In this document: positions 6,789 through 11,708 of the stretch, piece after piece
How positions within the stretch are numbered: position 1 is the first letter of the stretch
How the letters are laid out: each line of letters opens with the position of its first letter
DNA from: a virus
DNA length: 28,549 nt
Strand: one strand, 5' to 3'
Virus record (IMG/VR): IMGVR_UViG_3300049457_000003
Location: 1 to 28,549 of that record
Notes under the pieces: generated by a model
Told to the model about the DNA's origin: nothing
Databases searched by the model: none
What the model saw: only the letters and a program-made list of their open reading frames with translations
Made by a program: the position numbers and the translations under genes

Positions 6789-6993
6789 AGAAGAACTTTT
6801 AGAGTGGCAAAAACATCCAGTAACGATAGAATTTTTTAAAGATCTTCAACAAATGAAAGGAGATTTAATGGAGGCATGGAGTAATGGTGCTTTTACTGGA
6901 AAGGATATTGAGGAAACATCTCAATTGAATTCTAGGGCTTTAGGCAAGGTTCAACAATTAGCAGATCTTTTAGAAGGAGAATGGAATGAATGA
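6781..6993 (+). CDS. Small conserved phage protein between portal and co-chaperonin (70 aa)
   Basis: I place the start at ATG 6781, which has AAAGGA 8 nt upstream and overlaps the portal stop. A longer start at 6760 would sit deep in the portal gene. The product begins MNREELLEWQKHPVTIEFFK and is almost entirely helical and acidic (NSRALGKVQQLADLLEGE). Short helical proteins of this kind are common after P22-like portals, but their role is not known to me. It overlaps the co-chaperonin gene by 8 bp, suggesting coupled translation. Confidence 0.75.
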   Translation: MNREELLEWQKHPVTIEFFKDLQQMKGDLMEAWSNGAFTGKDIEETSQLNSRALGKVQQLADLLEGEWNE

Positions 6994-7306
6994 GTCAGGA
7001 TTATTTCCTTGTGGACATAGAGTATGCGTAAGAATGGAAGAAGTGGAAATGAAAACATCTGGAGGGATATTAATTCCAGAACAGATCGCAGAAAAGGAGG
7101 AAATGAAAGGAATAGTCGCAACGGTAGTATCTGTAGGTCCAAGCGCCTGGGCAGATCAAACTGTCGGAGGAAAATGGGCTTCTCCAGGGGATAAGGTAAT
7201 GATTGCCAAATTCGCTGGGCAAATTTGGAAAAATAAAGGTATTAAGTATCGAGTCATTAATGACCTCGATGTCATCGCTGTTTTAAATGAAGGAGATTTA
7301 CTATGA
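6986..7306 (+). CDS. GroES-like co-chaperonin (Cpn10 fold)
   Basis: The 106-aa product has the Cpn10 layout: an N-terminal strand (FPCGHRVCVRMEEVE), a mobile loop KTSGGILIPE at residues 23-32 containing the GGI-(L/I)-I type GroEL-contact tripeptide, a strand GIVATVVSVGP (42-52), then GDKVMIAKFAG (68-78) and a C-terminal strand with DVIAVL. Host GroES caps GroEL during protein folding, and phages T4 (gp31) and RB49 (CocO) encode their own for capsid folding. Its position between portal and scaffold suggests the same use here. An insertion of about 10 residues (SAWADQTVGGKW) lengthens the loop before GDKV. GAAGGAGA precedes the start. The gene overlaps the scaffold gene by ATGA. Confidence 0.88.
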   Translation: MNESGLFPCGHRVCVRMEEVEMKTSGGILIPEQIAEKEEMKGIVATVVSVGPSAWADQTVGGKWASPGDKVMIAKFAGQIWKNKGIKYRVINDLDVIAVLNEGDLL

Positions 7307-9295: not shown

Positions 9296-10216
9296 ATGCC
9301 TATCGGCGGAATAATTTCAACTGGTAATCATCCAAAAGCACTTTGGCCTGGAATAATGGCTTGGTGGGGTAGGGATTATAATGACTATCCTAAAGAATGG
9401 CCTGATATGTTCGATGAAGAACAATCAGAGAAGAATTATGAAGAAGAGGTAAAGATTACTTCTTTTGGCCTTGCACAATTAAAGTCGCAAGGGGCTCAAA
9501 TAATCTATGACTCTGAAGAGCAAGGACAGGTCACTCGTTATACCCATGCGACTTACGCCCTTGGTTACATAGTAACCATGGAAGAGCTTATGGATAATTT
9601 ATATGAAAAAGTTTCTCAGACTAGAGTTCAGTCCTTAGCAAGGAGTCATCGTATAACTGAAGAAATTATTTGCGCTGATGTTTACAATAACGCATTTGAT
9701 ACCAGTTTCCCAGGTTCTGATGGTGTTCCATTATTGAGTGCTTCTCATCCTAATGTAACAGGCGGGACGTTTTCTAACATTCTTTCATCTTCTTCTGATT
9801 TAAATGAAACAGCTTTAGAAGATATTATTACGCAAATGTCTCTTGCGACAGATGATCGCGGTTTAATCATCGCGTTAAAACCACAGAAGCTTATAGTTCA
9901 CCCGAGTAATTGGTGGAATGCAAATAGGATTCTGAAGTCTGTATTTCAAAATGACACTGCTAACAACGCCATTGGTGTTTTGAAAGCCACCAATGCAATT
10001 CCTGGTGGTGTGATGCAGTGTCATTATCTAGACGCTCCTAATTCTTGGTTTGTTCGTACAGATGCTCCAAGGGGACTACGTAGATACACCAGAATGAAGC
10101 CTGTTGTTGAGAAAGACAATGACTTTGGGACTAAGAATGCCTTGACTTCAGCTGTACAGAGGTTCTCTGTTGGTTGGAGTGACCCTCTGGGTCTTTTCGG
10201 ATCTGAAGGCCCTTAA
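9296..10216 (+). CDS. Major capsid protein (Mu gpT-like family)
   Basis: The 306-aa protein has the order typical of the gpT-like HK97-fold family: YPKEWPDMFDEEQSEKNYEE near residues 32-51, TRYTHATYALGYIVTMEELM at about 80-100, DGVPLLSASHPNVTGGTFSN at about 142-161, DDRGLIIALKPQKLIVHPSN at about 182-201, the WFVRTDAPRGLR strand, and a C-terminal FSVGWSDPLGLFGS. It starts after a GAGGAGAT site, as expected for a highly expressed gene. It is preceded by scaffold and decoration genes. There is no cleavable N-terminal delta domain, consistent with a separate scaffold. Confidence 0.92.
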   Translation: MPIGGIISTGNHPKALWPGIMAWWGRDYNDYPKEWPDMFDEEQSEKNYEEEVKITSFGLAQLKSQGAQIIYDSEEQGQVTRYTHATYALGYIVTMEELMDNLYEKVSQTRVQSLARSHRITEEIICADVYNNAFDTSFPGSDGVPLLSASHPNVTGGTFSNILSSSSDLNETALEDIITQMSLATDDRGLIIALKPQKLIVHPSNWWNANRILKSVFQNDTANNAIGVLKATNAIPGGVMQCHYLDAPNSWFVRTDAPRGLRRYTRMKPVVEKDNDFGTKNALTSAVQRFSVGWSDPLGLFGSEGP

Positions 10217-10543: not shown

Positions 10544-10659
10544 ATAAACAAAATCGTGGAGATTATGGTAATGCGCCTAATACCGTACCTGCAAAGGTTC
10601 CGGAAAAGCCAATTGCTGATCAACCTAAGGTTAAACCGATTGCACCTATAAAGAAGTAA
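10540..10659 (+). CDS. Proline/lysine-rich small protein (39 aa), unknown
   Basis: The start at 10540 overlaps the previous stop (ATGA) and the gene ends at TAA 10657-10659. The peptide begins MNKQNRGDYGNAPNTVPAKV and ends KPIAPIKK, with repeated Pro-Lys/Ala-Pro units, probably unstructured. GGGAG lies about 6 nt upstream. It is the last of the three chained small genes and sits 20 nt before the tRNA-like element. Confidence 0.55.
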   Translation: MNKQNRGDYGNAPNTVPAKVPEKPIADQPKVKPIAPIKK

Positions 10660-10679
10660 TTAAAGAAGTAAAACTTTAT

Positions 10680-10731
10680 GTGTCCCTGGCTAGGGTAAGC
10701 CGATGGTTCGAATCCTCGGGGCACTTTTTTT
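10680..10731 (+). ncRNA. tRNA-like element lacking an anticodon arm, followed by a T run
   Basis: GTGTCCC (10680-10686) pairs with GGGGCAC (10718-10724) as a 7-bp acceptor-like stem with one G-U pair. After one T, GGCT (10688-10691) and AGCC (10698-10701) form a 4-bp D-arm-like hairpin with loop AGGGTA. A T-arm follows at 10702-10717, with the exact consensus GGTTCGAATCC and a TTCGAAT loop. Its stem has one bulged T. There is no anticodon arm and no encoded CCA. Seven Ts (10725-10731) follow, so the fold may also terminate or pause transcription. It lies in the 83-bp gap before the beta-helix gene. A decayed tRNA or tRNA-derived terminator are the main alternatives. Confidence 0.5.
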
Positions 10732-10742
10732 AGGAGACTATC

Positions 10743-11708
10743 ATGGGATTTACTAATTTTCCAAATGGTATTACAAGTTTCGGAGTTCCGATTTTCGGTG
10801 GCAATTCTAAGTTAGTCAGTACTGGCCCATCACCAAGATCGTTTGGATATGGAAATACTTGGTTTGTAAATGCCTATGCCGGCGGTAATGGTTATGATGG
10901 TAAAAGCCCGCAGACTCCATTCCTCACTATGGAAAAGGCTTTTGAATTCGTTCAGTCTGGTGACGTGATTAACTTTTGCGGAAAAATTACTGAACAACTT
11001 GTAACTCCTATTAACATCTTTGATGTATGGATTAACGGTACTGGTAATCGTCCACGACATGCAGATGCCACACCAGTTGGCGGGAATTTTGCTGCTGCAC
11101 AATGGGCTCCTCCATCCTCTGGTGGAACTGCAGCGCAGGCTACTATTCGAGTTCTTCAGCAAGGCTGGCGTTTTACAAATATTCTCTTCACCTCAATTGA
11201 TGCAAATGCAGGATGTATTGAATTGGTCCGTAATGCTGCTTCCGGTGATGACGAGCGAGATGCATCTCATGCCGAGATTATCGGCAATCGTTTTGCTGGA
11301 ACAGGCATTGGGATAAAGATTGGAGCAACAAGTTTTACGGAAAATGTATTTAATGCCTTAATCGATGGCAATACTTTTAATAACATGTCACAAGGCATCT
11401 TTGCTACAAGTTGTCAGCCTAATGGAATACAGATACTTAACAATTATTTCTTCGCAAATACGAAGAATATAACCGCAAAGCTTCAAGGAAGTAGAGTTCA
11501 AGGAAATATCATAGGCCCATTTACTGCGGCATCTAGTAGTGGAGGTATAGACTTGACAGGAGGCGTAGCTGGGAATGTTATAACTCTTAATTATCTTTCC
11601 GGCACTTACTCTAATACTGGCGGTTATGTTGCTGCTGGTGCAGGAGATGAATGGGGTGCAAACATGAATGTCATTTCCGGTGGGTGGACTGCTGCTGATC
11701 CAGCATAA
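10743..11708 (+). CDS. Right-handed beta-helix virion protein
   Basis: The 321-aa product begins MGFTNFPNGITSFGVPIFGG, a common start for structural proteins following capsid genes in this phage group. WFVNAYAGGNGYDGKSPQTP and FLTMEKAFEFVQSGDVI form the pre-helix region typical of pectate-lyase-like proteins. From about residue 130 there are repeated short strands ending in Asn/Gly turns (AEIIGNRFAGTGIGIKIG, ALIDGNTFNNMSQGIFA, IQILNNYFFANTKNI, SRVQGNIIG), about 20-24 residues per rung. No catalytic residues are obvious. It may be a head fibre or surface protein rather than an enzyme. TAGGAG precedes the start. Confidence 0.72.
   Translation: MGFTNFPNGITSFGVPIFGGNSKLVSTGPSPRSFGYGNTWFVNAYAGGNGYDGKSPQTPFLTMEKAFEFVQSGDVINFCGKITEQLVTPINIFDVWINGTGNRPRHADATPVGGNFAAAQWAPPSSGGTAAQATIRVLQQGWRFTNILFTSIDANAGCIELVRNAASGDDERDASHAEIIGNRFAGTGIGIKIGATSFTENVFNALIDGNTFNNMSQGIFATSCQPNGIQILNNYFFANTKNITAKLQGSRVQGNIIGPFTAASSSGGIDLTGGVAGNVITLNYLSGTYSNTGGYVAAGAGDEWGANMNVISGGWTAADPA

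Follow-up and report, generated by a model that had tools for sequence, protein, structure and literature searches.

A naturally permuted three-stem RNA upstream of a class of virion genes near the major capsid gene in uncultured phages

Natural circular permutation of structured RNAs is best known from ribozymes. Among the described systems that resemble the locus reported here, the nearest by place is Mu-gpT-DE (RF03012), a structured RNA whose name places it downstream of Mu gpT-like major head genes and whose model ends in a Shine-Dalgarno sequence and an ATG. Likeness of form is found in the T-arm of tRNA (RF00005), with its seven-nucleotide T-loop on a stem of 5-6 bp stacked directly on the next helix, and in the T-loop RNA module, whose loop reads U-N-N-R-A-N-U. 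Hammerhead and twister ribozymes are small multi-stem-junction RNAs with natural permutations, and an enrichment of bacterial ribozymes near Mu-like phage genes has been reported (PMC10085705). According to the same paper, natural circular permutations are known only for the hammerhead and twister ribozymes, 5S rRNA and group II introns, and ten other candidate motifs were assayed, none of which cleaved (PMC10085705).

In this paper, we report a computational analysis of an RNA element of 45-70 nt located in a virus contig of 28.5 kb (28,549 nucleotides; hereafter, the window) and in related phages. A first-pass annotation of the window, made from its letters, had described at 10680-10731 a 45-nt tRNA-like element, with an acceptor stem, a D-arm and a T-arm but no anticodon arm, followed by a run of seven T's, and the letters at 10680-10724 are as described. 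The capsid gene of the window matches PF10124, so the element lies downstream of a Mu gpT-like gene, as the name Mu-gpT-DE specifies; three small genes separate the two. The gene that follows the element encodes a product for which an AlphaFold2 model gives beta-helix-like strands from about residue 170 and an N-terminal part of low confidence. Searches against solved structures with the capsid protein, a neighbouring cement protein and a small downstream protein did not find a convincing relative. By sequence resemblance, a GroES-like co-chaperonin gene is located upstream of the capsid gene (6986-7306), and several related named phages have annotated co-chaperonin genes at the equivalent position.

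Alignment of the same gap in related phages, which had been suggested as a check, revealed conserved pairing with covariation, and the proposal of a structured, conserved RNA with a T-arm-like hairpin within the late operon is borne out by these relatives. Across the metagenomic phage relatives (loci are designated here by L numbers), the consensus is a three-stem junction consisting of P1, a GUAAG joiner followed by P2, and P3 of 2-5 bp. P1 is formed by RGCA paired with UGUY and contains one G-U pair kept without exception in both of the types described below. P2 comprises 6 bp of any sequence and is usually capped by a tRNA-like T-loop, U-[UG]-N-R-A-N-U, which in several members (L171, L220, L230) is replaced by a longer inserted hairpin. 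P3 reads GG/CC and, in three majority-type sequences, GU/AC; its covarying pair is A-U in L122 (type A) and U-A in three type B sequences. Type A, to which the window belongs, is open at P1, which carries both ends, and its P3 forms a small hairpin. Type B, the majority, has the UGUYCC strand on its 3' side; here the ends are in P3, and P1 is closed as a hairpin. As the two types share their pairs and their conserved letters, A and B are circular permutations; a third permutation, with P2 open, was not found among the leaders collected.

Table 1. Coordinates of the element, its parts and the neighbouring genes in the window
Feature	Position	Strand	Evidence or remark
Major capsid protein gene, Mu gpT-like	9296..10216	+	Pfam Phage_capsid_4 5.7e-08, Mu-like_gpT 5.1e-06; PHROG 371 major head protein
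P1 5' strand GUGUC	10680..10684	+	U10683 in the invariant U-G wobble; U-G in 21/21 type A sequences, neighbours covary
P3 5' strand CC	10685..10686	+	pairs with 10693-10694
P3 hairpin loop UGGCUA	10687..10692	+	length and sequence vary among relatives; site of the earlier D-arm call
P3 3' strand GG	10693..10694	+	covariation, type A and type B alignments
Joiner GUAAG between P3 and P2	10695..10699	+	UAAG invariant in 33 + 21 aligned sequences
P2 5' strand CCGAUGG, U10704 bulged	10700..10706	+	six-pair helix, double changes in relatives
T-loop UUCGAAU	10707..10713	+	consensus of relatives U-[UG]-N-R-A-N-U
P2 3' strand CCUCGG	10714..10719	+	covariation, type A and type B
P1 3' strand GGCAC	10720..10724	+	covariation, type A and type B
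T7 spacer, private to the window copy	10725..10731	+	no such run in 17 type A relatives
Shine-Dalgarno AGGAG of the 10743 gene	10732..10736	+	sequence
Gene with the element as leader; MGFTNFPNGI... N-terminus, right-handed beta-helix body	10743..11708	+	weak Beta_helix and NosD matches below cut-off

The covariation alignments held 54 sequences, i.e. 33 of type B and 21 of type A including the window (Table 1). In type B, standard pairs make up 99.7% of pair cells. Changes on both sides affect 84 cells, against 16.8 for shuffles and no more than 14 for slid controls; because the variable P1 loop was excised and the 3' strand of P1 and P3 was chosen by motif, the counts for P1 and P3 lean somewhat towards structure, whereas the P2 count is unaffected. 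In type A, 95.2% of cells are paired and 40 are double-changed, against 12.9 in shuffles. The double changes in P2 involve all six pairs in type B and five of the six in type A, and RNAalifold, run unguided on the type A alignment, predicted the identical structure. When sequences were collected by TAAG/RGC spacing with pairing ignored, a six-pair helix without mismatch, unrelated in sequence between members, was present in nearly all, and most of the few exceptions were off-register matches. One parsed leader, L159, has UAAA instead of UAAG, and at the 5' side of the element no conservation was seen beyond P1 or P3 in the aligned relatives. An extra conserved P1 sub-motif, RTGCATGAGA...GACAGGGC, was observed in the permuted elements of L035, L113, L178, L193, L219 and L255 and in the first copy of L226, and in part in L253.

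If judged from the window alone, the case for the element would be weak, and evidence beyond chance is comparative. Its folding energy is ordinary (z -1.1; 26 of 200 shuffles equally good). An exact T-arm core, GGTTCGAATCC, occurs once in the window, although such a site, with one mismatch allowed, is expected in 28% of shuffles. The seven-pair closing stem of the first-pass annotation (GTGTCCC/GGGGCAC) can be drawn with one U-G pair, but the comparative data reduce it to 5 bp, 10680-10684 with 10720-10724; its last two C's pair with the GG of P3 and the remaining G's belong to P2, a helix of 6 bp in the window with T10704 bulged. The D-arm (GGCT/AGCC) is likewise drawable in the window but can be formed in only 4 of 21 type A sequences, the window included, and is therefore no conserved feature. 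The T7 run is present, yet at least five T's occur there in none of the 17 relatives tested, and the proposal of a tRNA-derived terminator fails because the relatives lack the run. As an intrinsic terminator the element was rejected as well, the T run being found in the window alone and the element not being among the terminator-like sites found there.

The T-arm core and T7 run of the window are what a decayed tRNA gene or a transcription terminator would offer in its support. Against decay, more than 60 relatives have the conserved, covarying structure and none of them has a tRNA at the site, nor was a full-length tRNA, which would have marked this copy as a relic, present at the same place in 45 relative records. 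The alignments thus refute both possibilities for the family and we regard them as scarcely credible, while a T-run terminator private to the window phage may remain. Tools for tRNA detection gave a consistent picture. ARAGORN returned 0 tRNA genes in the window, the RF00005 covariance model had no match in the window and none up to E 10 on 10600-10800, and the proposed tRNA and tmRNA model searches gave nothing above threshold at the site; the L194 element scored 14.9 bits in the tRNA model, below the cut-off of 29. Identity as a tRNA was rejected, there being no anticodon arm and the joiner from P3 to P2 being UAAG in all aligned members. The idea of a tRNA with its anticodon arm deleted is not sustained either: relatives do not keep the D-arm, no more than 2 of 21 window-type members have CCA after the stem, and most relatives are permuted.

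A role as a tRNA mimic, the leading idea of the first-pass annotation and taken here as that of a substrate of EF-Tu, a synthetase or the CCA enzyme, would draw on P2 and its loop, which as a T-arm are well formed (6 bp, UUCGAAU) and stack directly on P1. The second base of the T-loop is U, as in tRNA, in 18 of 20 type A sequences but in 12 of 34 of type B (Fisher p 1.5e-4, uncorrected for phylogeny). This bias in type A, in which the P3 hairpin lies beside the T-loop, keeps a weak link to tRNA architecture and could reflect a contact of the D-loop/T-loop kind, with shared ancestry uncorrected. Mimicry is nevertheless highly improbable: apart from the rarity of the CCA and of the D-arm pairing, an anticodon arm is found in no member and the tRNA model misses the element. 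Furthermore, most relatives have P1 as a closed hairpin, and aminoacylation or recognition by RNase P therefore cannot be the shared role. In the opposite direction, the family model gave true tRNAs no more than 20.6 bits, for the most part over the T-arm alone, with model positions 26-42 matching T-arms; the likeness to tRNA is therefore real but essentially that of one hairpin.

Covariance models recovered the element independently of the window. A type A model built from 15 type A sequences, from which the window and, with its nearest relative among them, L021, L120, L112, L122 and L235 were held out, recovered all left-out members at 33-65 bits, and its sole match in the window was at 10675-10726 (40.2 bits, E 7.6e-12). 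A model of type B sequences only, with zero sequences of the window type, also detected the window element (24.5 bits, E 4.9e-5). Loci encoding relatives of the downstream protein have similar letters at the same place, and their other genes are distant.

Searches beyond these loci were largely negative. An exact pattern of the 3' half of the element had no match in viral contigs, and a DNA similarity search of the gap in named phages gave short chance matches only. The element was not found in the named phages with a related capsid, namely Alcaligenes QDWS535, Planktothrix Pag-Yong1, Pelagibacter HTVC023P and HTVC027P, Roseobacter CRP-901 and CRP-902, Caulobacter RLK, DSL-LC04 and others; the single weak match among named phages (L278, 17.4 bits) lies inside a coding region and was rejected. 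In bacterial genome contigs most matches of the pattern were tRNAs or of unrelated sequence; a single real element (L153) was found, on the same contig as L083, and the permuted model found nothing in 398 and 369 bacterial genomes in searches run without a positive control.

The position of the element is fixed with respect to one class of genes. All 64 matches of the type B model (E <0.002, 908 kb of loci) immediately precede a gene whose product starts M-x-[LF]-T-x-[FY]-P-x-G, and in L226 two copies each precede their own such gene. As the loci were chosen for containing such a gene, 64/64 describes placement within loci and not independence from the gene, and independent support for the placement comes from RNA-only patterns. 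Two such patterns, one of them GGTAAGC followed by the T-loop core, found elements directly 5' of M-x-[LF]-T-x-[FYL]-P-x-G genes, amid true tRNAs and chance matches, in L049, L053, L075, L076, L083, L084, L085, L106, L112, L113, L114, L120 and L122. Conversely, a scan by gene start alone, using no RNA letters, showed the element in most leaders among the matches listed. The element ends 8-20 nt ahead of the start codon in type A (n=19; 18 nt in the window) and 11-23 nt ahead of it in type B (n=51), giving an overall range of 8-23 nt.

L001 and L002, whose capsid proteins are 82% and 78% identical to that of the window, have similar small genes, a different next gene and no element, indicating that the element belongs to the downstream gene. 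Among the matches listed, 63 of 100 loci with such a gene carry the element and about a third are without it; it is therefore not essential for expression of the gene in all phages. Other leaders were observed in this gene class. In L170, L202 and L244 a GGGGG/CCCCC hairpin, frequent in elementless genes and possibly related to Mu-gpT-DE, takes the place of the element; in L170 and L244 it is flanked by CCUUG and CAAGG, the latter overlapping the Shine-Dalgarno. The leaders of L223, L233, L246 and L259 share a recurrent motif, CTCCGGCTGC (CGGCTCCGGCTGC in two). In the named phages L268, L270, L271, L272 and L278 the next gene after the capsid gene starts MA[TN][ST]TF.G and is preceded by a long, partly similar gap, which may hold a different structured leader.

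The fixed position of the element beside the Shine-Dalgarno in both permutations points to translational control of the downstream gene, and we consider it somewhat more probable than its opposite that the element is a cis-acting structured leader RNA governing translation of the virion gene next to the major capsid gene. The three-stem junction lies between the cistrons of the mRNA, immediately ahead of the ribosome-binding site, and the compact fold, alone or bound by a phage virion protein or host factor, would alter 30S access to the adjacent Shine-Dalgarno and so set or switch translation of the downstream gene. Hiding of the Shine-Dalgarno by the element itself, as in a riboswitch or leader that sequesters it in an alternative fold, was not seen in computed pairing (0.45 vs 0.48 shuffled for type A, 0.47 vs 0.42 for type B). 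Purely by analogy, the conserved N-terminus of the downstream protein may be an arm that binds the capsid, with the RNA perhaps adjusting the amount of this protein to that of the capsid.

The same location, between the capsid gene and the next genes, would also suit an RNA-processing or mRNA-stabilising site at which a host enzyme or RNA-binding protein parts the capsid mRNA from the downstream message, and in several loci, e.g. L053 and L028, terminator-like hairpins stand just upstream. Such a site is quite unlikely, since recognition by RNase P or RNase Z requires an acceptor whose end is free, and in type B that end is closed, and the 5' side of the element is unconserved beyond its outer helix.

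Permutation itself, being best known from ribozymes, fits a catalytic RNA better than it fits a translational leader. The element would then be a small self-cleaving ribozyme of a new kind, cutting the late mRNA just 5' of the gene, with the two architectures as permutations of the ribozyme type; the three-stem junction with its strictly conserved unpaired UAAG and invariant G-U pair, and the Mu gpT-like nature of the capsid gene given the reported enrichment (PMC10085705), agree with this. We nonetheless hold cleavage to be unlikely, because it would not need the narrow spacing to the start codon, no known ribozyme family was matched in the Rfam scans, and the candidate motifs tested elsewhere did not cleave (PMC10085705). 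It is similarly only a minor prospect that the T-loop and UAAG junction define, at virion gene starts, a new permuted class of small self-cleaving ribozyme or ligand-sensing RNA.

With the leader reading preferred, the tie of the element to one virion gene class beside the capsid gene suggests control of virion protein dosage at the RNA level. The window and 13 relatives were scanned against Rfam at the gathering threshold, and smaller sets at E-value thresholds; these scans yielded no family for the element and returned only group I introns elsewhere and sub-threshold chance matches. Group I introns were noted near late genes of two element-bearing phages, L106 (5010-5212, minus strand) and L164 (582-775 and 1843-2080). 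A description of the element was not found in the literature covered, and as subscription journals and preprints fell largely outside that coverage, the novelty of this widespread, apparently undescribed structured RNA is likely but not certain.

In comparison with the known systems, the element shares its place with Mu-gpT-DE but differs from it in structure: none of 47 records reaches the gathering score of 49 bits (best, 17.1 bits), and the sole alignment to the window, at the SD-ATG end (12.7 bits), has no counterpart of the GUAAG, the T-loop P2 or P1. With tRNA it shares a T-arm, P2 and UUCGAAU fitting the T-loop consensus, whereas the anticodon arm, a conserved D-arm and the CCA are lacking and most members are permuted. 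It has no Rfam match to the hammerhead or twister ribozymes and no common core with them was recognised, and its T-loop, unlike other instances of the module, caps the P2 of a three-stem junction absent from Rfam. The element is thus a compact and strongly supported RNA, covered by no Rfam 15 family and common in uncultured phages, and it presents a case of natural circular permutation outside the few RNA classes in PMC10085705.
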